Source of the DNA: Clostridiales bacterium
Lineage (GTDB): Bacteria > Bacillota > Clostridia > Oscillospirales > Oscillospiraceae
Direction: 5' to 3'
NCBI GenBank assembly: GCA_021199695.1
Contig: JAJQHP010000248.1
Coordinates: forward strand, 1 to 10,832
DNA length: 10,832 nucleotides
The notes below the pieces were generated by a model. That model was not told the origin of the DNA. It saw only the letters and a list, made by a program, of their open reading frames with translations, and searched no databases. Shown in pieces: positions 1-10,832 of the stretch. Both the position numbers and the translations under genes were made by a program. Position 1 is the first letter of the stretch; every line of letters starts with the position of its first letter.

Positions 1-60
1 GCCCCAGAGTCGGGCCAGATGGGCGGCGGTCTCCTCCGTCCCCCGGATGTGGGGATGCGC
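1..60 (-). other. Out-of-frame start of a YqeK-like HD hydrolase domain
   Basis: Reading the minus strand with codons starting at 60 gives AHPHIRGTEETAAHLARLWG, which resembles the first helix of YqeK-type HD proteins (H-x2-G-T-x2-x-A-x2-L-A). YqeK enzymes cleave diadenosine tetraphosphate, and in Clostridia the domain is often encoded just after NadD or fused to it. The nadD frame is one base different here: it reads RIP and then T-S-G-G-R, where RIP-H-I-R-G-T-E would be expected. One extra C in the CCCC run at 54-51 (GGGG on the plus strand) would join the two frames. I see no start codon or ribosome binding site close upstream in the HD frame, so a separate gene is unlikely. A real frameshift or a homopolymer sequencing error fits best. 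Confidence 0.7.
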
Positions 61-743
61 CTGGCCCGGACCATGGCGGCGCTGACCGCCCGAAGCTCCT
101 CTAAGGTCAGGTGCTTCAAATCCGCCCGGGTCCCGTAGAGCCGGTGGCCCAGGATATAACCCCACACGCTCTCGTCCAGCCACTGGCGGCCTCCGCCCTG
201 GGACAGCTCCTCCCGCACCCGGGTAGAGGACACCTCCACCAGGTCCGGCAGGGTCGCGATCTCCACTCTGGCATTGCAGTCCCGCTCCAGCCGCTCCCGC
301 TGGGCGGCGAACCGCTCCGGCCCGTCTCCCGCCTCCCGGCCAAAGACGCACAGCCCCGCCAGGGCGGCGATGACCTCCGGCTCGTGCCAGCGGTGGAAGG
401 AGAGAAACATATCCGTCCCCATGAGCAGCCACAGCTCGTCGGCCGGATACATGGCCTTCACATACCGGAGGGTGTCGCTGGTGTAGCTCTTGCCCTCCCG
501 GTCCGTCTCCAGGCGCAGCACCTGGACGGGGATGGCCAGCCCCAGCCGGTCCGCCATAATGCCGGTCATGTTCAGCCGGTCCTCCGCCTGGGCGGAGCAG
601 CCGGAGAGGGCCTTGTGGGGCGGCAGCCCCGCCGGGATGAGCAGAAGCTTGTCCAGCCCCAGCCGCTCCGCCGCCCCCCGGGCGGCCGCCATGTGTCCCA
701 GATGGGGCGGGTCAAAGGTGCCGCCGTAAATGCCGATCTTCAT
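1..743 (-). CDS. nadD: Nicotinate-nucleotide adenylyltransferase NadD, 3' end outside window and probably frameshifted
   Basis: NadD transfers AMP from ATP to nicotinate mononucleotide, giving deamido-NAD in the cytoplasmic NAD pathway. The protein begins MKIGIYGGTFDPPHLGH, the nucleotidyltransferase fold with its GGTFDPxHxGH ATP-binding motif. It continues with a PAGLPPHK substrate loop (about residues 37-44), LLMGTDMF and, near residue 180, the second ATP motif SSTRVREEL, so the roughly 200-residue catalytic domain is complete. The ATG at 743-741 overlaps the yhbY stop in an ATGA arrangement, which suggests translational coupling. After residue 200 comes a linker (YGTRADLKHLTLEEL) that in many Clostridia leads into a fused YqeK-type HD hydrolase domain. 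Here the frame changes near residue 230 into low-complexity Arg/Pro sequence, while the HD-domain start is readable one frame over (see next entry). The catalytic assignment is firm. Whether the full gene is intact is open. Confidence 0.93.
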   Translation of the reverse strand, partial: MKIGIYGGTFDPPHLGHMAAARGAAERLGLDKLLLIPAGLPPHKALSGCSAQAEDRLNMTGIMADRLGLAIPVQVLRLETDREGKSYTSDTLRYVKAMYPADELWLLMGTDMFLSFHRWHEPEVIAALAGLCVFGREAGDGPERFAAQRERLERDCNARVEIATLPDLVEVSSTRVREELSQGGGRQWLDESVWGYILGHRLYGTRADLKHLTLEELRAVSAAMVRARRIPTSGGRRRPPPIWPDSG

Positions 744-1066
744 GCCCGGTTTCCCTGCTTCGGCCGCACCAGGACGATCTTGTCCTTCTTGTCCTTCCGG
801 TGGCTGGGCCGGTAGAGGACGAACTTGCTGCCGATGACCTGCACCGGCTCCGCCGGGACCCGGCGGCACAGCTCCTCACAGGCGGTCCGGGCGTCGTACT
901 CCGAGTTCTCCAGCACCTTGCCCTTGACCAGCTCCCGGGCCTCCAGGGCGTCCCGGCACTGGGCGACCAGGTTCTCCGTGATACCGTCCTTGCCCACCGT
1001 CAGAATGGTGTCGATGGTGTTGGCCATGCTGCGCAGCTGGGCCCGCTGCTTGCTTGTCAGTTCCAT
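740..1066 (-). CDS. yhbY: YhbY/CRS1-domain RNA-binding protein
   Basis: This 108-residue protein is a single CRS1-YhbY (CRM) domain, close to the family's usual length of about 95-105 residues. It starts MELTSKQRAQLRSMAN, carries the loop TVGKDGIT (GKDG at 25-28, the GxxG-type RNA-binding loop), then a helix, the ELVKGKVL strand and a final QVIGSKFVLYR strand, and ends in a basic tail. Members bind the 50S ribosomal subunit or its precursor and assist assembly. In Bacillus subtilis the homologue yqeI lies directly before nadD and yqeK, and the same order is seen here. The ATG at 1066 is preceded by AAAGGAGAC (1084-1076) at about 11 nt. The stop overlaps the nadD start by 4 bp. I found no clear promoter in the gap upstream, which is occupied by repeat modules. 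Confidence 0.93.
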   Translation of the reverse strand: MELTSKQRAQLRSMANTIDTILTVGKDGITENLVAQCRDALEARELVKGKVLENSEYDARTACEELCRRVPAEPVQVIGSKFVLYRPSHRKDKKDKIVLVRPKQGNRA

Positions 1067-1130
1067 GGATGTGATGTCTCCTTTATTGTCTGTTAGGCTT
1101 CTTCAAAAGGCCGTTCCATTTGCCTGTTGG

Positions 1131-1250
1131 CGAATTCGCCGGAAACTTGTACGGAACGGAAGTGCATACTGCTCTCCCTCAGTCAGCTTCGCTGACAGCT
1201 CCGCCGTCAAGCGGCACTTCCGCTACGCTCCCTGCCTCAGAGAGGGAGCC
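1131..1250 (-). repeat. Palindromic intergenic repeat, module 1 (with inserted hairpin)
   Basis: This is one of four copies of a structured module found in the two gene-free gaps. In plus-strand order it has the outer CGAATTCGCCGG (1131-1142), a 26-nt spacer, CTGCTCTCCCTC (1169-1180), a perfect hairpin GTCAGC-TTC-GCTGAC (1182-1196) and the closing GAGGGAGCC end (1242-1250). Between the hairpin and the end, about 33 extra bases (about 1203-1235, including a small GCCG/CGGC hairpin) interrupt the second CTCCCTC/GAGGGAG hairpin seen in the other copies. The outer CGAATTCG also lies within a perfect palindrome GGCGAATTCGCC (1129-1140), itself flanked by CCGTTCC (1111-1117) and GGAACGG (1153-1159). 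With module 2 it fills most of the 309-bp yhbY-rdgB gap, where I see no gene. Confidence 0.8.
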
Positions 1251-1270
1251 GAGAGGGTGCGTCAAATCCT

Positions 1271-1365
1271 TGCCTCCCTCCTTGAGGGAGGTGGCACGGC
1301 GTAAGCCGTGACGGAGGGAGAGCAGCAGGCACTACCATCCAGCTCCTATACTCCCGGCGAATACG
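1271..1365 (+). repeat. Palindromic intergenic repeat, module 2
   Basis: This copy is in the opposite orientation to module 1 and forms an inverted pair with it. It has a perfect hairpin CCTCCCTC-CTT-GAGGGAGG (1273-1291), a second perfect hairpin CACGGC-GTAA-GCCGTG (1295-1310), then GAGGGAGAGCAG (1314-1325), a 28-nt spacer and the outer CCGGCGAATACG (1354-1365). The last matches module 1's CGAATTCGCCGG as an inverted repeat at 11 of 12 positions. CTGCTCTCCCTC of module 1 and GAGGGAGAGCAG here are perfect inverted repeats, and the match extends to AGTGC/GCACT (1161-1180 and 1314-1333, 17 of 20). The rdgB stop lies about 10 bp beyond the outer arm, so the hairpins could also affect the 3' end of the rdgB transcript. 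Confidence 0.82.
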
Positions 1366-1375
1366 ATAGACACTT

Positions 1376-1972
1376 TCAGCCCGTCTCCCCCAAATACCCC
1401 TCCAGCACCCTTCCGAATGCCCGGAGGGCGTTGCCCCGGTGGGAGATGGCGTTTTTCTCCTCCGGGGTGAGCTGGGCAAACGTCTTTTTCAGCCCCGGCA
1501 CCCAGAAGATCGGGTCATAACCGAAGCCGTCGTCGCCCATGGGGGCATAGGCCACCGTGCCGTCGCACCGGCCTTCGGCGGTGAGTACTGTCCCGTCGGG
1601 GAACACACAGGCGATGGCCGTCTCAAAGTGGCAGGTCCGGGGGGACAGTCCCTGGAGATTGCGCAGCAGCAGCCGATACCGCTGCTCGTCGGTGAGGTCC
1701 TCCCCGCCGTACCGGGCGGTGTATACCCCCGGCGCGCCGTTCAGCGCGTCCACGCACAGGCCGGAGTCGTCGGAGATGGCGGGCAGACCGCTGGCGGCGC
1801 AGACGGCCTGCGCCTTGAGCAGAGCGTTTTCCGCAAAGGTCGTCCCCGTCTCCTCCACGTCCACCTGGATGCCCAGCTGAGACTGGAGGACGACCTCCAC
1901 CCCCAGCTGTCCCAGCACCTCCTGCATCTCCTTCAGCTTGCCCGGGTTGTGGCTGGCCAGTACGAATTTCAT
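1376..1972 (-). CDS. rdgB: XTP/dITP diphosphatase (RdgB/HAM1 family)
   Basis: The enzyme hydrolyses XTP, ITP and dITP to the monophosphate and pyrophosphate, removing deaminated purine nucleotides from the cytoplasmic pool before they enter DNA or RNA. The 198-residue protein has the family's usual length and all its motifs in order: SHNPGKxxE at 7-15 (phosphate binding), TFAENAxxKA at 45-54, DDSGLCVDAL at 68-77 with the metal-binding and catalytic aspartates, GAPGVYTARY at 79-88, then GDDGFGYDPIF, and SHRGNAL near the C-terminus. The ATG at 1972-1970 shares four bases (ATGA) with the stop of rph, so translation is probably coupled. The same rph-rdgB pairing occurs in Bacillus (rph-ysnA). It ends just before repeat module 2, with no U-tract terminator visible. 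Confidence 0.96.
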   Translation of the reverse strand: MKFVLASHNPGKLKEMQEVLGQLGVEVVLQSQLGIQVDVEETGTTFAENALLKAQAVCAASGLPAISDDSGLCVDALNGAPGVYTARYGGEDLTDEQRYRLLLRNLQGLSPRTCHFETAIACVFPDGTVLTAEGRCDGTVAYAPMGDDGFGYDPIFWVPGLKKTFAQLTPEEKNAISHRGNALRAFGRVLEGYLGETG

Positions 1973-2694
1973 CGCTCCGCCTCCGTCAACACCCGGTTTT
2001 GCAGCTCGATCAGCTCACCGATGCCCTTGGCGCAGTAGCGGACCAGCTTCTGCTGCTCCTCCACATCGAAGGGACGGCCCTCGCCGGTGCCCTGAATTTC
2101 GATGAGCTTGCCCTCCTCGGTCATGACGCAGTTCAGGTCCACCATGGCGGAGGAGTCCTCCTCATACCGCAGGTCGAGGAGGAGGGCGTTTTCCACGATG
2201 CCGGCGGAAACCGCCGCCACGTTGTGGATAATGGGATTTTCCTTGATCCACCCGTTCTTGTGCAGCGTCCGGCAGGCCAGGGCCAGGGCCACAAAGCCCC
2301 CCGTCACCGAGGCCGTCCGGGTGCCCCCGTCTCCCTGGAGCACGTCGCAGTCGATGACGATCTGATAGCCGGGCAGCTTTTTCAGATCCACCGCCGCCCG
2401 GAGGGAGCGGCCGATGAGCCGCTGTATCTCCGCAGAGCGGCCGGAGAGCTTGAGCTTGGACACGTCCCGGCGGCTCCGGTCCCGGTTGGCCCGGGGCAGC
2501 ATATTGTATTCCGCCGTCACCCAGCCTTCGTTTGCGGGGACGTGGGGCGGCACCCGGTTCTCCACCGAGGCGGTGATATACACCTGGGTGTCCCCACACT
2601 TGATGAGGCAGCTTCCCTCGGCAAACCGGTTGATGTTGGGGATGATCTCCACCGGCCGCAGCTGGTCCTTGGCCCGTCCGTCGATCCGTTTCAT
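1969..2694 (-). CDS. rph: Ribonuclease PH
   Basis: RNase PH trims nucleotides from the 3' end of tRNA precursors by phosphorolysis, using inorganic phosphate and releasing nucleoside diphosphates. It usually acts as a hexameric ring. The 241-residue protein matches family length. Visible signatures are RPVEI near the N-terminus, CGDTQV, the SGRSAEIQRLIGRSLRA region at 84-100 with arginines of the RNA and phosphate sites, GDGGTRTA at 121-128, the acidic EDSSAMVDLN stretch at 179-188 with likely metal-binding aspartates, and GTGEGRPF at 202-209. I chose the ATG at 2694 (MKRIDGRAK) over the in-frame ATG at 2727. It has AGGAGG at 2708-2703 with 8 nt spacing and matches the family start, whereas 2727 would lie within ftsY. 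The ribosome binding site overlaps the ftsY stop (TGAGGAGG), so the genes are tightly coupled. Confidence 0.96.
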   Translation of the reverse strand: MKRIDGRAKDQLRPVEIIPNINRFAEGSCLIKCGDTQVYITASVENRVPPHVPANEGWVTAEYNMLPRANRDRSRRDVSKLKLSGRSAEIQRLIGRSLRAAVDLKKLPGYQIVIDCDVLQGDGGTRTASVTGGFVALALACRTLHKNGWIKENPIIHNVAAVSAGIVENALLLDLRYEEDSSAMVDLNCVMTEEGKLIEIQGTGEGRPFDVEEQQKLVRYCAKGIGELIELQNRVLTEAER

Positions 2695-2707
2695 GCAAAA
2701 AGCCTCC

Positions 2708-3574
2708 TCAGATAAACGCCTTGACAAACTCGTCGGCGTCGAAATAGCGCAGATCGTCGATGCCCTCGCCCACTCCGGCGAACTTCACCGGCAGGCCCAG
2801 CTCCTGGGCGATGGCGATGGCGATGCCGCCCTTGGCGGTACCGTCCAGCTTGGTGAGCACGATGCCGGTGATACCGCAGGCCTCCTTGAACTGTTTGGCC
2901 TGGATGAGGCCGTTCTGGCCCGTGGTGGCGTCCAGCACCAGCAGCGTCTCCTTGGAGCAGATGGGGCACTCCCGCTTGATGACCCGGTCGATCTTGTTGA
3001 GCTCGTTCATCAGGTTGGTCTTGTTGTGCAGCCGTCCGGCGGTGTCCACCAGCACCACGTCGGTATACCGGGCGTTGGCGGCGTTGATGGCGTCAAAAAC
3101 CACCGAGGCGGGGTCCGCCCCCTCCCCCTGCTTGATGATGTCCACGCCGCAGCGCTCCGCCCAGATGGTGAGCTGCTCGGTGGCGGCGGCCCGGAAGGTG
3201 TCGGCGGCGGCGAACATGACCTTTTTGCCCTCTTTTTTCAGGATGTTGCCGATCTTGCCGATGGTGGTGGTCTTGCCCACCCCGTTTACCCCGATAAACA
3301 GGACAATGGAGGGCTGGCTGTACAGAATCAGCCGCTTGTCACCCACGTTGAGCATATCGGCCAAAATCTCCCGCATGACGGCCTTGGCCTTCTCCGTATC
3401 GCCGATGCGCTCGGCCTCGCACCGCTCCCGGAGGCGGGCCACCGCCTTTAGTGCGGAGTCCATCCCCATGTCGGAGAGGATGAGGGCCTCCTCCAGCTCG
3501 TCGTAGAAGTCGTCGCTCAGCTTGGTATAGGTGTTGAAGATGTTGATTTTTTTCAGTTTATCAAAAAATCCCAT
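2708..3574 (-). CDS. ftsY: Signal recognition particle receptor FtsY
   Basis: FtsY is the SRP receptor GTPase. It docks Ffh-ribosome-nascent chain complexes at the membrane and hands them to SecYEG. The 288-residue protein has an N helical bundle (about 15-85) and a G domain with GVNGVGKT (95-102, P-loop), DTFRAAA (125-131), DTAGR (177-181), TKLDGTAKGG (241-250) and GVGEGIDDL near the C-terminus. There is no long acidic A domain. The N-terminus MGFFDKLKK is a short amphipathic start, as in many Gram-positive FtsY proteins. I chose the ATG at 3574 because AAAAGGAG lies 9 nt before it and homologues begin MGFFDKL; an in-frame ATG at 3628 adds 18 unlikely residues. It follows smc, the common smc-ftsY order, but a 320-bp gap with two repeat modules intervenes. 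No convincing promoter is visible in that gap. Confidence 0.97.
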   Translation of the reverse strand: MGFFDKLKKINIFNTYTKLSDDFYDELEEALILSDMGMDSALKAVARLRERCEAERIGDTEKAKAVMREILADMLNVGDKRLILYSQPSIVLFIGVNGVGKTTTIGKIGNILKKEGKKVMFAAADTFRAAATEQLTIWAERCGVDIIKQGEGADPASVVFDAINAANARYTDVVLVDTAGRLHNKTNLMNELNKIDRVIKRECPICSKETLLVLDATTGQNGLIQAKQFKEACGITGIVLTKLDGTAKGGIAIAIAQELGLPVKFAGVGEGIDDLRYFDADEFVKAFI

Positions 3575-3642
3575 GGTATATCGCTCCTTTTGGGGTGGTG
3601 TGGGAGAAACTATTTTCCAAAAAATCAAAAATTACGCTATCC

Positions 3643-3731
3643 TGGCTCCCTCCTTGAGGGAGCTGTCAGCGAAGCTGACTGAGGGAGAGCAGTAAACACA
3701 TCCCCCTTCTGGGGGGCTTTCGGCGAATTCG
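3643..3731 (+). repeat. Palindromic intergenic repeat, module 3
   Basis: The module reads GCTCCCTC-CTT-GAGGGAGC (3645-3663), then the perfect hairpin GTCAGC-GAA-GCTGAC (3665-3679), GAGGGAGAGCAG (3681-3692), a 28-nt spacer and the outer CGGCGAATTCG (3721-3731). The spacer holds a separate C5/G5 hairpin (3702-3715). Order and spacing match module 2. The central stem has the sequence of module 1 when that copy is read in reverse. It lies about 70 bp upstream of the ftsY start and would be read in antisense orientation by smc-ftsY transcription. Its C-rich hairpin is not followed by a U tract on either strand, so I do not call a terminator. Confidence 0.82.
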
Positions 3732-3779
3732 TCGAGTCTCCAAAATATCCATTCTTCATTATTTAACGCCAACAGCCAT

Positions 3780-3871
3780 CGAATTCGCCGCAGCATTTGG
3801 ACGTATTGATGGTGCCTGCTGCACTCCCTCAGTCTGCCCTGCGGGCAGCCAGCTCCCTCGGAGAGGGAGCC
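3780..3871 (-). repeat. Palindromic intergenic repeat, module 4
   Basis: This copy is inverted relative to module 3. In plus-strand order it reads CGAATTCGCCG (3780-3790), a 28-nt spacer, CTGCACTCCCTC (3819-3830), the perfect hairpin CTGCCC-TGC-GGGCAG (3834-3848) and GCTCCCTC-GGA-GAGGGAGC (3852-3870). The central stem differs completely in sequence from those of modules 1-3 yet is fully paired. The outer arms of modules 3 and 4 are perfect 11-bp inverted repeats facing each other across about 50 less GC-rich bases (3732-3779). The smc stop lies 24 bp further on, so this hairpin pair would be in the 3' region of the smc transcript. Confidence 0.82.
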
Positions 3872-3894
3872 AAGGGTGCTACCTCTTTCTCATC

Positions 3895-6800
3895 TCACCC
3901 CTCGATGCCCAGCTCCTGCTCCACGTCGTTGAGGTTGATGGTCAGGATGCGGCTGATGCCCTTTTCCTGCATGGTGACGCCGTAGAGGACGTCCGCCTCC
4001 TCCATGGTGCCCCGGCGGTGAGTGATGCAGATGAACTGGGTCTTGTCCGTCATGCCCCGCATATACCGGGCGAAGCGGACCACATTGCTCTCGTCCAGGG
4101 CGGCCTCGATCTCGTCCATCACCACGAAGGGGGTGGGACGGACCTTCAAAAAGGCGAAGTACAGGGCGATGGCCACAAACGCCTTCTCCCCGCCGGAGAG
4201 CAGGGTCAGCACCTTCAGCGCCTTGCCCGGGGGCTGCACCTTAATTTCAATATCGCAGTTCAAAATGTCCTTGGGGTCGGACAGCTCCAGGGTGGCCTTG
4301 CCGCCGCCGAAGAGCTGGGTAAAGGTGAGGGCGAAGGCCTCGCCGATCCTCTGGAACTGCTGGGCGAAAATCTTCTCCATCTCGGTGGTGATGCCGCCGA
4401 TGATGTCGGTCAGCTCTCCCTTGGCCTGCTGCACGTCGTCCCGCTGGCCGGTCAGGTATTCGTACCGTTCGTTCACCCGCTGGAACTCGTCGATGGCCCC
4501 CAGGTTCACGCTGCCCAGGCCGGAGATTTTCCGTTTCAGCTCGCTCACCCGTCGGGCGGCCTTCTGGGTGGATTCCAGCGCCTGCCGCTGGCTCTGGGCG
4601 CCGTCGTAGCTCAGCTCGTAGCTGTCCCACAGCTTGTCCAGCAGTTGCTTTTCCTCCATGGCGGCCTGGGTCTTTTTCTGCTCCAGGGGGGAGCACTCCC
4701 GCTCCATCCGCAGCAGCTCGTCGTTCTTCTCCCGGGCGTCCTTGTCCGTCTGATTCCGGCGGCCCTCCAGGGCCAGCTTCTGGCCGTTCAGGTCGTCGAT
4801 CTGGCTCTGCTGGGCGGCCTGTCGCTGATAGAGGGCGGTCAGCGCCTGCTGGGCGCTCTCGATCTGGCTCTGGAGGCTCTCGTTTTTCCCCTCGAACTCC
4901 CGGATCTGGGCCAGCCGGGACTCCCGGTCGCCGGTGATGTCCCGCTCCATGGATCTCAGCTCGTTGAGGGCGGCCTCGGTGGCGCTCTCCTCCGCCTCTA
5001 ATGCGGCCAGCTCCGCCCGGAGCGCGGCGATCTCGTTTTGCAGTGCCTCCTGCCGGGTGCGCAGGGCGGACTGGTCCTCCTCTTTCCCTGCACTCTCCTG
5101 CCGGGTGGCCTGGGCCTGCTGCTCCAGCTGGGCGATGCGCGCCTCGGCGCTTTGGGTGTCCGTCTCCGTCTGGGTGCTCCTGCCCGCCAGGCTCTCCAGC
5201 TCGGTCCGGCTGACCTGCTCCTGCTGCTCCAGGGCCTCGATGAGGATACGGTACTGGCCCATCTCCCCCTCCAGCTTGAGCACCTGGTCGTCCTGCTCCC
5301 GCTTCTGGCCCTGGGCAGTCTCCACCTCGTAGCCCGCAGCGGAGACATCCCGCTTCGCCCCGTCCAGGATGCTCCTGGCCTTTTCCAGGCTCTGCCGGAC
5401 GCCTACGGCCTGCTCCTTCAAATGCTCCAGCTCGGTGGCCCGGGACAGGATGCCTGCGCTCCGGCTGACGGAGCCGCCGGTCATGGAGCCGCCGGGGTTG
5501 AGCACCTGACCGTCCAGGGTGACGATGCGGAACCGGTGGCCGTACCTCCGGGCCATGGGGATGGCGCTGTCCATGCTGTCACAGACCACCACCCGGCCCA
5601 GGAGATTGGAAAACACATTCTCATATTGGCTGTCATACCGGATGAGGCTGGATGCGATGCCCACAAAGCCCGGCTCCTGCTCCAGCCCCCGCTCCCGGAG
5701 CGCGCCGGGGCGGATATCCGACAGGGGCAGGAAGGTGGCCCGGCCCCCGTCCCGGTGCTTCAGGTATTCGATAGCAGCCTTGCCGTCCTCGGCCCGGTCC
5801 ACCACGATGTTCTGCATGGCGGCGCCCAGGGCGATCTCGATGGCTACGGTGTACTCCTCCGGCGCCCGGAGCAGTCCCGCCACCGGGCCGTGGATGCCCC
5901 TCAGCCGCCCCCGCTGGGCGGCCTGCATCACCGACTTCACCGCCTTGGAATAGCCCTCATACAGCTTCTCCATCTCGGTGAGCATTTTGATCCGGCTCTG
6001 GAGGTCGTTGTCCTCCATGGTCAGCCGGTTGGCCTGACCGGTGCAGGCGTCCAGCCGCTTCTGCCGGGCCTGGAGCCGGAGCTGATAGCCGCTGATCCGG
6101 TTGGCCAGCTCCTCCGCCTGGACCCGGGCCTCGCTGAGCTGGCTCTGCTTGTCCGCTGCCTCCGCCCGGAGGGATTCCAGCCGCCGGGCGTTCTCCTGTA
6201 ATTGGCTCTTGATGGCGGTGTCCCGGTCCAGCAGCTCCTGCTGGGCGGCGGCCAGGGCGGAGAGCAGCGCCCTGGCGTCGGCGGCAGAGGCGGTCTCCGC
6301 CTCTGCTCTGGCCCGGAGGGTCTCGATCTCCTGTCCCAGGCTCCCCGCCTGGGCGGCGAGGGTCTCCCCCGCCAGCTGCTTTTCGCTGAGGGTACGGGTC
6401 AGCTCCCGCTGATTTGCCCGCAACTCCTCCAGCCGGGCCTCTCTCTGGCCGATCTGGGCGGCCACCGAGTCCGCCCGGCCCTCCTGCCGGTCCAGCTCCT
6501 GGGTGAGCCGCTGGGCGTTCTCCCGGTTGTTCTGGACCTTGTTTTTCAAAATGGCGATGTCCGATTCTCTCTGATTGGCCTCTGCGGTCAGGCCGGAGAG
6601 CTGGGCCCGGAGCTGGTCGTTCTCCACGTCCAGCTGCCGCATCTGGGCGGACAGCTCCTCCGTCCGGTGGTACAGCTCCTCCTGCTGGGCGGCGGCCTCG
6701 TCCCGCTGGCGAACGGCGGCGGCGTAATCGCTGTAGAGCTTCCGATTGCCCAGGCGGAGCCGGTCCAGCTGATCCATCCACAGAGAGATCTCCAGCCCCC

Positions 6801-7467
6801 GCAGCTCGTCCCGGTAGAGCAGAAATTCCTTCGCCTTGGCGGACTGCTCCCGGAGGGGCTCCACCTGGAGCTCCAGCTCGGAGATCTTGTCTCCGATGCG
6901 CAGGAGGTTGTCCTCCGTCCGCTCCAGCTTGCGCTCCGCCTCCTCCTTCCGGTGGCGGAACCGGGAGATGCCCGCCGCCTCCTCAAAGACCGCCCGCCGC
7001 TCCTGGCCCCGGGTGGACAAAATCTCGTCTATTTTGCCCTGTCCGATGATGGAATACCCCTCCCGGCCCAGGCCGGTGTCCATGAACAGCTCGTTGATGT
7101 CCCGCAGACGGCAGGACTGGCGGTTGATATAGTATTCGCTCTCCCCGGAGCGGTAATACCGCCGGGTGACCATGACCTCGCTCTCCTCCATGGGGAGCAT
7201 ATGGCCGGAGTTGTCCAGGATGAGGGAGACCTCCGCGTATCCCGTCTGTTTGCGCTGCTGGGTGCCGCCGAAGATCACATCCTCCATCTTGCCGCCCCGG
7301 AGGGCCTTGGTGGACTGCTCCCCCATGACCCAGCGGATGGCGTCGGAAATATTCGATTTGCCGCTGCCGTTGGGCCCGACGATGGCGGTGATGGCCTCTC
7401 CGAAGGTGAGAACGGTTTTATCAGGAAAGGATTTGAACCCCTGTATTTCCAGTGCTTTTAAGTACAC
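3895..7467 (-). CDS. smc: Chromosome segregation ATPase SMC
   Basis: SMC is the ATPase of the bacterial condensin SMC-ScpAB, which loops and aligns sister chromosomes near the origin. The 1190-residue protein has full family length. The head starts MYLKALEIQGFKSF with Walker A GPNGSGKS at 31-38 and a Q-loop region IRWVMGEQS. A long coiled coil rich in Glu, Gln, Arg and Ala follows, then a hinge at about 520-670 with the typical VLNPGGSMTGGS element, the returning coiled coil, and the C-terminal head with signature LSGGEKA (from about 1090) and Walker B FVVMDEIEAALDE (D1118, E1119). The start codon is GTG at 7467-7465. The only nearby upstream ATG in frame is followed at once by a stop, and GAGGTG lies 5 nt before the GTG. 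A promoter fits at 7506-7534. The gene appears intact. Confidence 0.98.
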   Translation of the reverse strand: MYLKALEIQGFKSFPDKTVLTFGEAITAIVGPNGSGKSNISDAIRWVMGEQSTKALRGGKMEDVIFGGTQQRKQTGYAEVSLILDNSGHMLPMEESEVMVTRRYYRSGESEYYINRQSCRLRDINELFMDTGLGREGYSIIGQGKIDEILSTRGQERRAVFEEAAGISRFRHRKEEAERKLERTEDNLLRIGDKISELELQVEPLREQSAKAKEFLLYRDELRGLEISLWMDQLDRLRLGNRKLYSDYAAAVRQRDEAAAQQEELYHRTEELSAQMRQLDVENDQLRAQLSGLTAEANQRESDIAILKNKVQNNRENAQRLTQELDRQEGRADSVAAQIGQREARLEELRANQRELTRTLSEKQLAGETLAAQAGSLGQEIETLRARAEAETASAADARALLSALAAAQQELLDRDTAIKSQLQENARRLESLRAEAADKQSQLSEARVQAEELANRISGYQLRLQARQKRLDACTGQANRLTMEDNDLQSRIKMLTEMEKLYEGYSKAVKSVMQAAQRGRLRGIHGPVAGLLRAPEEYTVAIEIALGAAMQNIVVDRAEDGKAAIEYLKHRDGGRATFLPLSDIRPGALRERGLEQEPGFVGIASSLIRYDSQYENVFSNLLGRVVVCDSMDSAIPMARRYGHRFRIVTLDGQVLNPGGSMTGGSVSRSAGILSRATELEHLKEQAVGVRQSLEKARSILDGAKRDVSAAGYEVETAQGQKREQDDQVLKLEGEMGQYRILIEALEQQEQVSRTELESLAGRSTQTETDTQSAEARIAQLEQQAQATRQESAGKEEDQSALRTRQEALQNEIAALRAELAALEAEESATEAALNELRSMERDITGDRESRLAQIREFEGKNESLQSQIESAQQALTALYQRQAAQQSQIDDLNGQKLALEGRRNQTDKDAREKNDELLRMERECSPLEQKKTQAAMEEKQLLDKLWDSYELSYDGAQSQRQALESTQKAARRVSELKRKISGLGSVNLGAIDEFQRVNERYEYLTGQRDDVQQAKGELTDIIGGITTEMEKIFAQQFQRIGEAFALTFTQLFGGGKATLELSDPKDILNCDIEIKVQPPGKALKVLTLLSGGEKAFVAIALYFAFLKVRPTPFVVMDEIEAALDESNVVRFARYMRGMTDKTQFICITHRRGTMEEADVLYGVTMQEKGISRILTINLNDVEQELGIEG

Positions 7468-8726: not shown

Positions 8727-8770
8727 GGGCCGCCGCAGAGCGCTGTCTCTGCGGCGGCCCCCCTTTTTTG
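8727..8770 (+). terminator. Intrinsic terminator of cysK
   Basis: A perfect 14-bp stem, GGGCCGCCGCAGAG (8727-8740) with CTCTGCGGCGGCCC (8747-8760), closes a 6-nt loop and is followed by CCCC and six T residues (8765-8770). It lies 40 bp after the cysK stop. The 3' arm side and loop also take part in a second possible hairpin (8740-8786). Confidence 0.93.
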
Positions 8771-8841: not shown

Positions 8842-8870
8842 TTGCGACATTTTCAGGAACGTGTTATTAT
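8842..8870 (+). promoter_or_regulatory. Candidate promoter of the zinc-ribbon/RCC1 operon
   Basis: TTGCGA (8842-8847), 17 nt, then TATTAT (8865-8870) fits a sigma-A promoter with a moderate -35. It lies after the cysK terminator and about 120 nt before the chosen start of the next gene, in a locally AT-richer stretch. Transcription would begin near 8877. The rest of the 308-bp gap (8687-8994) holds the terminator and a GC-rich leader with no recognised motif. Confidence 0.55.
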
Positions 8871-8994
8871 ATCGTTGGAAAAAGTTGGATTCTTTTCTAC
8901 CGTTGAGGGCGGGTCCCGTCTGTCCGGCAGAAACAGAGGCTCGGGAGCCGGAGGCCCCCATATGAGTAAGACGATTCAGAGAGGTGTGTCTCCT

Positions 8995-10257
8995 ATGGAT
9001 GTTTGCCCCATCTGCAAGAAAGAGATGACAGAGACCCGATGCCGCCGCTGCGGATACGATGAGAGTCTGAACTACGAGCGATACGCCACGCTGATGCCGG
9101 GAGTGGCTGATGAAAAGCGGCCCTCCGTCTCCGTGACACGCCGGAAATGGACGGAGCTGGAAAGAGAATCCCTCCGCTGCCGCCGCTGCGGGAAAGGATT
9201 CTTCTGGGTCATTCCAAAGCGCCGGGTTTATGTCTGCACGGCCTGCGGAGAGGAAAATCCTTTTCCCAAGGAAGTGAAGCCGGATCTTATTCACAAGAAA
9301 GATGAGAAAAAGCCCCTTCCCAAGGACGGAAAGGAGTCTACGGGAAAGATTAAAATCGGCCCTGCCGACCCGCTGAGTTCTTATTTCAAGTGGCCCGCCT
9401 CGTCCAAAACACACCCGAAGCAGGTTGCCCCCGCCGTCTCCGCCGGGTACGGCCACGCCATCGCCATTTGCCGGGACGGGAAGGTCCTCTCCGCAGGACC
9501 CAACTATTATCACAAATGTGAGGTGCGGGACTGGCGGGATGTGGTCGCGGTCGCCGCGGGTCCGAATTTCAGCTTTGGCGTGAAGAAGGACGGCACAATA
9601 CTGACGACGAATCCGCCTGCAGCGGCAAGCTTTCTGGGCAACGTACCCGGACTGGACGGGCGGACGAAATGGGTGGGCATCACTGCGGCAGACGCCGCCT
9701 CCGGCCATATGGTGGCGATGACCCGGGACGGCAAGGCGGTGCTGTTTGGGGACCATGGGCACGGACGGTTCAATGTGACCCCATGGCGAGATGTGGTGTC
9801 CGTGTCCGTGGGGGAGGCGATCACCCTGGGACTGAACCGGGACGGGAAGGCTCTGGTCACCGGCGTCAAGCCAGGGGACGATCGTTTTCGGGAGGTCGCC
9901 GGTTGGAAGGACCTGGCCGGTCTCTCCGCCGGGGGGCAGCACGCCGTCGGGCTGAAACGGAACGGGACGGTGATCGCCGCCGGAGATAACCTGTCCGGTC
10001 AGTGCGACGTAGAGCACTGGAGCCAGATCAAGGCAGTGGCCGCCGGAGACCGCCACACGGTAGGGCTGAAAGATGACGGCACCGTGGTCGCGGTCGGCAG
10101 AAACGCGGAGGGCCAGTGCAATGTGACCACCTGGACGGATATTGTGGCCATCGCCGCCGGAGGTACGTTCACCATCGGCATCCGGGCCGACGGCACGGCG
10201 GTCTCCACCAGCAGAAGGATCGATGTATCCGGCTGGAGCGAGGTGAGGGTACCGTAA
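8995..10257 (+). CDS. Zinc-ribbon and seven-blade RCC1-like repeat protein, function unknown
   Basis: The 420-residue protein opens with two zinc ribbons: CPIC/CRRC (C4, C7, C16, C19) and CRRC/CTAC (C62, C65, C81, C84). A Lys/Pro-rich linker (about 91-140) follows. From about 143 to the end there are seven repeats of about 38-44 residues with the pattern W-x-D-[IV]-V-A-[VI]-[AS]-A-G-x2-H-x-[VI]-G-L-x2-D-G-T-V-x-A-x-G-x-N. These are RCC1-type repeats, and seven suggests one closed beta-propeller. Repeats 5 and 6 are most regular (GQCDV, GQCNV); repeats 2 and 3 are degenerate. There is no signal peptide or membrane segment, so it should be cytoplasmic. I chose ATG 8995 (MDVCPIC, GAGGTG 8 nt upstream). 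In-frame ATG 8962 has GGAGG 7 nt upstream and is a real alternative, adding 11 residues. RCC1 repeats usually bind proteins or chromatin-like partners; no specific role can be assigned. The next gene overlaps by one base. Confidence 0.85.
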   Translation: MDVCPICKKEMTETRCRRCGYDESLNYERYATLMPGVADEKRPSVSVTRRKWTELERESLRCRRCGKGFFWVIPKRRVYVCTACGEENPFPKEVKPDLIHKKDEKKPLPKDGKESTGKIKIGPADPLSSYFKWPASSKTHPKQVAPAVSAGYGHAIAICRDGKVLSAGPNYYHKCEVRDWRDVVAVAAGPNFSFGVKKDGTILTTNPPAAASFLGNVPGLDGRTKWVGITAADAASGHMVAMTRDGKAVLFGDHGHGRFNVTPWRDVVSVSVGEAITLGLNRDGKALVTGVKPGDDRFREVAGWKDLAGLSAGGQHAVGLKRNGTVIAAGDNLSGQCDVEHWSQIKAVAAGDRHTVGLKDDGTVVAVGRNAEGQCNVTTWTDIVAIAAGGTFTIGIRADGTAVSTSRRIDVSGWSEVRVP

Positions 10258-10832
10258 TGAACCGAACAGAAGCGCATGAATATGGACCGGAGGGGGACAG
10301 CTGGCGCTGTCCCCGCTGCGGTCAGTGGAGCTACGGCGACTCCTTTTGCTCTGAATGTGGCTTTGACCACACCAGCGATCTGCTGGCCCACCCCACCCTG
10401 TCCTGGCCGGTCCCAAGAACGGCCTCTGCCAGCCCGGACGAGATGCAGAGCGCGGAGAACGGGGAAGCGGTGCAAAAGCGCCTGGAGCAGGAGCGGCGCA
10501 GAAAAACCCGGTCGCGTCGGCTCATCGTTGCTTTGGTGCTGCTCGCTTTGCTCTGCGCGCAGCTGATACCGAATCTGTGGACCGCCAGCGGGCTGGCAAG
10601 CGCAGCGAGCGATTCCTCCGACAGCACCGGGGCAGAGGAGGAGACGGACGCAGCCTCCGATGACAACGAATCGGGACCTGCCGCCGATGAAACGGCGGCC
10701 GAGGAGGACGGGGAGCCAGTGGCCGATGAAACTGCGGCCGAGGAGGCCGCGGCGGCTGGCGCCGAAGAGGGGGCAGAGGAGGCGGCCGCGCCGCCGGAGC
10801 GCGGAGATGGGGCTGAGGACGAGGACGCGCTG
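10257..10832 (+). CDS. Zinc-ribbon membrane protein with acidic outer region, 3' end outside window
   Basis: The first 192 residues are visible. One zinc ribbon (C18, C21, C31, C34; CPRCG and CSECG) is followed by a charged stretch ending in RRRKTRSRR (80-88), a hydrophobic helix at about 89-106 and, from 115 on, an Asp/Glu/Ala/Ser-rich segment with almost no hydrophobic residues. By the positive-inside rule the zinc ribbon is in the cytoplasm and the acidic part outside. The acidic region has a tandem ADETAAEE unit encoded by a 24-bp direct repeat (10683-10706 and 10722-10745, one mismatch). The ATG at 10257 overlaps the previous stop (TAATG), with GAGGTGA (10240-10246) 10 nt upstream, so the two genes are translationally coupled. 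Such acidic linkers often tether an extracellular C-terminal domain, here beyond the window. I do not recognise the gene. It may sense or anchor together with its zinc-ribbon neighbour. Confidence 0.82.
   Translation, partial: MNRTEAHEYGPEGDSWRCPRCGQWSYGDSFCSECGFDHTSDLLAHPTLSWPVPRTASASPDEMQSAENGEAVQKRLEQERRRKTRSRRLIVALVLLALLCAQLIPNLWTASGLASAASDSSDSTGAEEETDAASDDNESGPAADETAAEEDGEPVADETAAEEAAAAGAEEGAEEAAAPPERGDGAEDEDAL
10683..10745 (+). repeat. Two-copy 24-bp direct repeat in the acidic region
   Basis: A 24-bp unit beginning GCCGATGAAAC occurs at 10683-10706 and again at 10722-10745 with one mismatch, 39 bp (13 codons) apart. Both copies encode ADETAAEE. The in-frame period means copy-number change would lengthen or shorten the acidic linker without breaking the gene. 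Confidence 0.8.

Follow-up and report, generated by a model that had tools for sequence, protein, structure and literature searches.

What do two overlapping genes at the end of a short bacterial contig share, and to which system do they belong? The question is raised by a stretch of 10,832 nucleotides from a Clostridiales bacterium (the window), which is the whole of contig JAJQHP010000248.1 (G000:C225) in an assembly of 270 contigs that is 68% complete (GCA_021199695.1). The 3′ part of the window carries, in order, cysK, a terminator-like hairpin, a promoter-like site and two overlapping genes (open reading frames ORF1 and ORF2). An initial annotation had read these two genes as a unit in which a cytoplasmic propeller and a membrane protein meet through similar zinc ribbons. 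We propose instead, with somewhat better than even confidence, that a conserved multi-ATPase machine has a family of tagged client proteins, to which ORF1 and ORF2 both belong.

Both proteins begin with a four-cysteine zinc ribbon, as originally noticed. Alignment of their N-termini with those of their relatives revealed a shared element that consists of the ribbon and then a tail of about 15 residues, GFDxSxDYxxYPTL; the attention drawn to a common N-terminal element was therefore justified, its restriction to the ribbon was not. Ribbon and tail together are called the tag here. The parts of the two genes are as follows.

8995..10257, + strand: ORF1, tagged RCC1 propeller protein, 420 residues (alternative start ATG 8962)
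9004..9051, + strand: first zinc ribbon of ORF1, C4-C7-C16-C19, the four cysteines invariant in 13 ribbon-RCC1 N-termini
9052..9099, + strand: tag tail of ORF1, GYDESLNYERYATLMP, in conserved alignment columns (tail profile match 9049-9114, E=1.2e-10)
9178..9246, + strand: second zinc ribbon of ORF1, C62-C65-C81-C84, the four cysteines invariant in 13/13
9430..10254, + strand: seven RCC1 repeats of ORF1, residues 146-420, predicted seven-bladed propeller (Pfam; family profile to BLIP-II 3qhy)
10257..10832, + strand: ORF2, tagged membrane protein, open at the contig end, 192 residues seen (ortholog at L032:6869-8596)
10308..10358, + strand: zinc ribbon of ORF2, C18-C21-C31-C34, read from the sequence
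10359..10406, + strand: tag tail of ORF2, GFDHTSDLLAHPTLSW (tail profile match 10356-10427, E=1.6e-10)
about 10521..10577, + strand: predicted membrane span of ORF2 (hydropathy script; nine lysines or arginines (K/R) on the tag side vs none on the far side)
10584..10832, + strand: acidic linker of ORF2, predicted outside (83 residues, of which 29 D/E and 1 K/R)

Four samples of genomes were searched: a first survey of 40 and a genus sample of 32, each including the window's own genome (G000), an order sample of 394, in which tag scoring was limited to the best ≤18 candidates per genome, and a phylum sample of 398. Across the 40 survey genomes, a profile of ribbon plus tail gave complete matches only in G000, G002, G004, G009, G011, G016, G017, G020 and G023. 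A clear gap in the scores lies below them, and the other matches listed (E 1.5e-7 and weaker) cover the ribbon columns, the exceptions being two G008 matches that reach column 28 and, in G011, a weak frame that contains a stop.

The genes that accompany the tag most regularly form a multi-ATPase cluster. Ribbon-RCC1 proteins are present in eight survey genomes (the nine above without G011), and strong Hsp70-like matches (E<1e-50) occur in seven of the 40, all of them within these eight; the exception is G000, which has a ribbon-RCC1 protein and no strong Hsp70-like match, but does have U540, a protein of the cluster described below. Six further genomes with RCC1 matches of other kinds, without this ribbon type (G006, G022, G024, G025, G026 and G031), have no strong Hsp70-like match. 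A tagged membrane protein of the ORF2 type adjoins a ribbon-RCC1 gene only in G000 and G023, the remaining six genomes carrying tandem or fused RCC1 genes. The more constant partner of ribbon-RCC1 genes is thus the multi-ATPase cluster and not an ORF2-type gene. Homologues of the two window genes occur independently of each other in most genomes, and the pair is not a unit in its own right, as had been supposed, but the front of a conserved larger cluster.

This larger arrangement, and with it the C-terminal part of ORF2, for which the initial annotation had wished to extend the contig, could be looked up in a close ortholog. On contig JAJBUB010000096.1 (L032; G023:C62), where ORF1 is 78% identical to that of the window, the pair is followed on its 3′ side by a core of genes for a SWIM+HerA/DndH-type ATPase, an Hsp70-like protein, an SMC-like coiled-coil protein, a 167-residue ribbon protein, U540, U423, U247 and a CDC48-type AAA protein, inside whose gene the contig ends. 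The window's genome has U540, U423, U247 and the AAA gene together on contig C101, and the stretch before them resembles, by eye, the end of the ribbon protein.

U540 was taken as the marker of the core. Among the 32 genus genomes the core is present in 13 and the full tag in 12, every one of which has both, and none of the 19 core-less genomes is tagged (hypergeometric p about 6e-8). A tail-only profile picked out the same 12 tagged genomes. Partial matches were seen in G006 with the ribbon+tail profile (9.5e-7, ribbon columns 2-25 only) and, over part of the columns, in G005 (0.010) and G008 (0.047) with the tail-only profile. The ribbon+tail profile (A12) was built from nine of the 12 tagged genomes and the tail profile (A13) from a different nine, with no sequences from G004, G016 and G418; among the 23 genomes not represented in the ribbon+tail profile, the tag was found in 3/4 genomes with the core vs 0/19 without it (p=0.002). 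The more independent evidence is the absence of the tag from all 19 core-less genomes, together with the newly found tagged genomes G418, G419 and G421. In the order sample the core was detected in 5/394 genomes, three of which have a complete tag, and one genome (G382) has a partial tag match without a core match. The phylum sample yielded a strong U540 match in 1/398, namely G000 itself, and weak partial matches in G446 and G450.

What stands behind the tag varies. Complete tags also occur on contigs other than those of the core, in front of unrelated C-terminal parts (RHS, Sel1, multi-span and NlpC-like), and tagged genes can lie away from the core (G009:C10, on a 77-kb contig and 22 kb from its nearer end; G004:C19, on a 44-kb contig), while in G011 an 85-residue tagged protein directly follows the second AAA gene. 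The loci fetched from 12 genomes contain 53 ORFs with a tail at E<1e-3, 47 with a ribbon and six without, which were labelled RCC1 (17), DUF285 (9), Sel1 (5), RHS (4), NlpC-like (3) or left unlabelled (15); the labels were checked against Pfam for some only, and the 53 include a number of fragments at contig ends or masked stretches. Five more tail matches fall outside this set, three on G419:C137, one at G419:C243:20426 and one on G004:C44. The NlpC/P60-like label of three clients goes back to the look of their motifs, and the one of the three that was tested gave no Pfam or PDB match.

The tail can be kept where the ribbon is lost. One of the six ribbon-less ORFs lacks it through a contig cut, and the other five, all from G419, retain the tail. 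Three of the four complete members of an array of DUF285 genes directly 5′ of the SWIM-ATPase gene of G419 have the tail without a four-cysteine ribbon, and two further such ORFs lie on other contigs. The contact of ribbon with ribbon, originally seen as the point of the pair, loses its footing here, since the shared element extends into a tail that survives alone. A span-less DUF285 protein of G419:C243 (L229:16621-18357, - strand) has an S1 RNA-binding domain before its ribbon-less tail, and DUF285 need therefore not be outside. Another ribbon-less tagged protein, from G419:C120 (L231:2704-4350, - strand), continues with a span, an FMN_bind domain and DUF285 repeats.

Spans were predicted with a hydropathy script, and the side of the tag was judged by the K/R counts flanking the span. 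At least one span is predicted in 17 of the 53 tagged ORFs and none in 36. All 13 single-span proteins (13/13) have more K/R on the tag side, which places the tag, by prediction, in the cytosol. This applies equally to ORF2, for which the counts of nine and zero agree with the topology first suggested, the ribbon predicted inside and the acidic stretch predicted outside.

ORF1 carries several tandem RCC1 repeats on one chain, seven in all, with boundaries drawn by eye. Pfam RCC1_2 matches it in 6 stretches (E=6e-36), one repeat being too divergent for Pfam. When a profile of twelve ribbon-RCC1 proteins was compared with solved structures, the best match was BLIP-II (3qhy, E=1.5e-18), profile positions 141-380 of 392 aligning with residues 8-253 of a 282-residue chain and hence with nearly the whole propeller; HERC1, UVR8 and RCC1 followed, each over parts. 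The seven-repeat RCC1-like propeller of the initial annotation is thereby supported as a prediction by homology. BLIP-II has seven blades and binds proteins, so that the match points to a propeller type known to bind proteins. The start of ORF1 is not certain, ATG 8962 and ATG 8995 being in frame and the sequence around both being preserved in the ortholog.

ORF2 itself ends before any DUF285 repeats. Its ortholog (L032:6869-8596), a protein of 575 residues that is 53% identical over the aligned N-terminal part, carries 26-residue repeats (DUF285 E=7e-59), from which it is inferred that full-length ORF2 should run on into DUF285/PARCEL repeats. The ortholog genes overlap by four bases (6869-6872), and a second tagged DUF285 protein, with Big_2, is encoded 3′ of the pair, between pair and core. 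The gene upstream of the pair differs between G023 and the window, so that the pair probably occupies a different chromosomal site in G023. The window's genome encodes another DUF285 protein on G000:C16 (L251:2-1798), which has repeats but has lost its start to the contig end, and in which no tag was seen; a kinase C-lobe suspected by eye at its beginning was not supported.

The composition and order of the core vary between genomes. In G009 the core genes follow the order given above and a second AAA gene comes behind them; the genes at the front encode a Sel1 protein, a double RCC1 protein and a SWIM protein. Flanked by the RCC1 gene and the SWIM-ATPase gene lies a gene for a 587-residue SWIM protein (L049:5279-7042; G009:C65), which has a stretch that by eye resembles a cysteine peptidase, with no Pfam match. 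In G017, G020 and G016, two ribbon-RCC1 genes lie 5′ of the Hsp70-like gene and the SWIM-ATPase gene comes last in the cluster. Directly after the core SWIM-ATPase gene of G411:C101 lies a gene for a Ser/Thr kinase with an NPCBM domain (L098:12273-14153). In another genus, the core is headed by an RCC1 protein with 17 Pfam RCC1_2 stretches (L097:10795-14481, - strand; G342:C2), which begins with a divergent kinase-like domain (PknB 2e-10; Pfam kinase only 0.0035) whose usual catalytic positions appear by eye to be lost. Pfam gave no match at 0.01 for five of the core proteins, namely the coiled-coil protein, the ribbon protein, U540, U423 and U247. The cluster AAA protein matches Pfam AAA (4e-29), CDC48 (1.5e-33) and weakly AAA_5 (0.0015), and its likeness to the anti-phage ATPase IetA (2e-19) belongs to a broader resemblance among AAA proteins. 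Searches for mobile carriage with the Hsp70-like query returned four plasmid records, at 25-29% identity over ≤39% of the query, and no match in viral contigs; the U540 query had no match in phages, and the AAA profile matched at least 41 loci in viral contigs.

The signals around the pair are as follows.

8727..8760, + strand: terminator-like hairpin, a 14-pair stem then a T run, 3′ of cysK, which it separates from the pair
8842..8870, + strand: sigma-70-type promoter-like site, TTGCGA-17-TATTAT with an extended TG (shuffles; ortholog conservation)
10255..10259, + strand: TAATG stop/start overlap of one base, read from the sequence

The promoter-like site exceeds the shuffle level (one found vs a mean of 0.2 in shuffled sequence), and both hexamers, their spacing and the TG are preserved in the 78% ortholog despite the different upstream gene there; the initial annotation's promoter of the pair's own has gained in credibility, and its one-base overlap, which suggests translational coupling, is confirmed. 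A promoter common to all tagged genes was considered and rejected, as, of 24 upstream regions compared, only those of the window gene and of its ortholog contain TTGCGA. The 10-mer ACCGTTGAGG lies upstream of ORF1 (8899-8908); in the window and 41 loci checked, 5/5 occurrences are upstream of tagged RCC1 genes, the four others being mutually close relatives. An Rfam search of six sources had as its sole match a thiamine pyrophosphate (TPP) riboswitch in L226. Positions 1-7467 of the window hold, on the minus strand, what we take to be housekeeping genes (nadD, yhbY-like, rdgB, rph, ftsY and smc), followed by cysK on the plus strand.

How, then, might tagged proteins and core work together? We infer three steps, docking, target binding and an ATP-driven step, from the sequence comparisons. 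The cytosolic tag, ribbon plus tail, would dock a client onto the core, where one of the core proteins would read it. The interchangeable part behind the tag would be a soluble propeller of the RCC1/BLIP-II type in ORF1 and, in the predicted full-length ORF2, a membrane-anchored DUF285/PARCEL solenoid on the outside, and this repeat domain would bind the target. The core would then act, using ATP, on the client or on what the client has bound. Narrowing this further, we tentatively put forward, at a little less than even confidence, that the tail, with a dispensable ribbon, is a plug-in adaptor code that marks changing recognition proteins, among them RCC1 propellers, PARCEL solenoids, RHS and Sel1 repeat proteins and NlpC-like enzymes, for one Hsp70/AAA/HerA-type machine. 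The adaptor itself may be exchangeable too, as the RCC1 array protein that heads the G342 core has its degenerate kinase-like domain in the place of the tag. The least certain step is the purpose: a conflict or immune response, suggested by the resemblance of the mix of ATPases and varied recognition domains to described conflict systems, is a doubtful proposition at present.

In the main rival explanation the tag would be an export or sorting signal, and the core would be devoted to secreting or displaying the proteins that bear it, bringing them to the membrane or through it. Clients of the DUF285, RHS, NlpC-like and FMN_bind types are usually extracellular, yet 36/53 tagged ORFs have no span, and the core combines translocase-type ATPases (HerA/FtsK, AAA) with a chaperone-like Hsp70 and, in G342, a 157-residue protein with hydrophobic stretches. 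No channel appears, however, among the Pfam matches of the eight core proteins scanned, the 13 single-span clients all keep the tag inside and bring their own span, and one client has an S1 domain, of a cytosolic type, ahead of its tail; we regard export as unlikely. The tag could alternatively be only a mark of common ancestry: recombination would have copied the N-terminus of a lineage-specific gene family, and tag and core would have no functional tie. Co-occurrence lies mostly within one genus, and paralog arrays do exist (G419). The tail is nonetheless kept before unrelated domains and, in G419, without the ribbon, the tag accompanies strongly divergent cores (the Hsp70-like proteins of G011 and G023 share only 25% identity across 224 residues), and the 19 untagged core-less genomes belong to the same genus, so that we consider this account quite improbable. 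Slimmer still are the chances of a sensor made up of these two genes alone, its ribbons paired and its propeller serving the membrane protein as a platform. The one-base overlap, the promoter-like site kept in the ortholog and the same starting module on both proteins speak for it; against it, the two gene types adjoin in only 2/8 genomes, the same module is found on many unrelated proteins, and its tail persists without a ribbon in G419.

Several observations also count against the reading that we prefer, in which ORF1 and ORF2 are tagged clients of the core. The contact between tag and core is a prediction from sequence, and the repeat domain of ORF2 one from an ortholog. The profiles were partly built from the same genomes on which they were scored, and the p-values ignore the species tree and are inflated by shared descent. 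The core occurs without a complete tag in G420 within the genus, whose ribbon protein matches the ribbon columns only, and outside it, with at most 18 candidates scored per genome, in G342 and G411; a complete tag was likewise missing from the core loci of all three. Loss of the ribbon was seen in a single genome, G419. An Hsp70-like gene was not found in the window's 68% complete genome, for which the incomplete assembly can be the explanation.

Clostridia of this kind have RCC1 and PARCEL repeat proteins to which, to our knowledge, no function has been assigned. With a short tag as predictor of the ones that go with a single uncharacterised ATPase machine, scattered repeat proteins would become the components of one system, and, if that machine is an immune or surface-display system, this would represent a new way of swapping recognition domains. 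The tag also provides a concrete binding test, that of the tail peptide against the core proteins.

How does this arrangement compare with known systems? The core SWIM-ATPase (575 residues) resembles the HerA/FtsK ATPase DndH of DndFGH, of which it matches the last ~390 positions (1296-1685 of 1686, E=2e-176). It was rejected as a member of DndH because the likeness is confined to the ATPase domain, the long N-terminal domain array of DndH being absent; a PADLOC scan of ten proteins, eight of which belong to the core, gave no match to DndF or DndG. ATPase-only homologs are indeed described as inflating counts of DndH, and the parts of that study covered here distinguish six clades of related ATPases and mention no Hsp70/SWIM/RCC1 neighbourhood (PMC10853773). 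A comparison with ESCRT (endosomal sorting complexes required for transport; cf. the portions considered of PMC10936438) was prompted by eye, U247 recalling ESCRT-III and the N-terminus of the AAA protein recalling MIT; PDB and Pfam profile searches lent it no support. The ESCRT-III-like look is seen in the U247 proteins L087:12039-13257 and L062:567-1334 and their relatives, next to the cluster AAA gene. For the pair of Vps4 and ESCRT-III, profile searches gave no Snf7 or MIT match, with the weak exception that Vps4B alone aligns from profile position 20, among the 60 listed out of 228 PDB matches of the AAA profile.

Closer in overall composition are the multi-component nucleoside triphosphate (NTP)-dependent conflict systems (PMC7159879) and the extended CoCoNuTs (PMC11090510), whose operons, in the sections of these papers drawn on here, combine Hsp70-like, AAA and HerA-type ATPases with coiled coils, zinc ribbons and variable repeat or membrane parts. 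The McrB-type GTPase with a coiled coil that marks CoCoNuTs was not found (no McrB model match, ten proteins per scan), nor was the vWA protein that accompanies a MoxR-type AAA protein (no vWA match at E<=0.01, ten proteins); this comparison extended to vWA and McrB-type parts, and GAP1- and EACC1-type parts were not specifically searched. No description of cluster or tag was found in the literature searched, which took in few subscription papers. Among individual proteins, ORF1 is likened by its family profile to BLIP-II, a compact RCC1-like propeller that is not known to have ribbons or a tag such as the two ribbons and the tag in front of the ORF1 repeats. The ORF2 ortholog resembles the PARCEL/DUF285 surface proteins (TIGR02167, 3.6e-80; PF03382, 7e-59), from which it differs in that the repeats stand behind a cytosolic ribbon/tail tag and that some tagged copies have no span. 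By themselves, we rate ORF1 and ORF2 as new members of known repeat families, and the system of tag plus core as categorically new.

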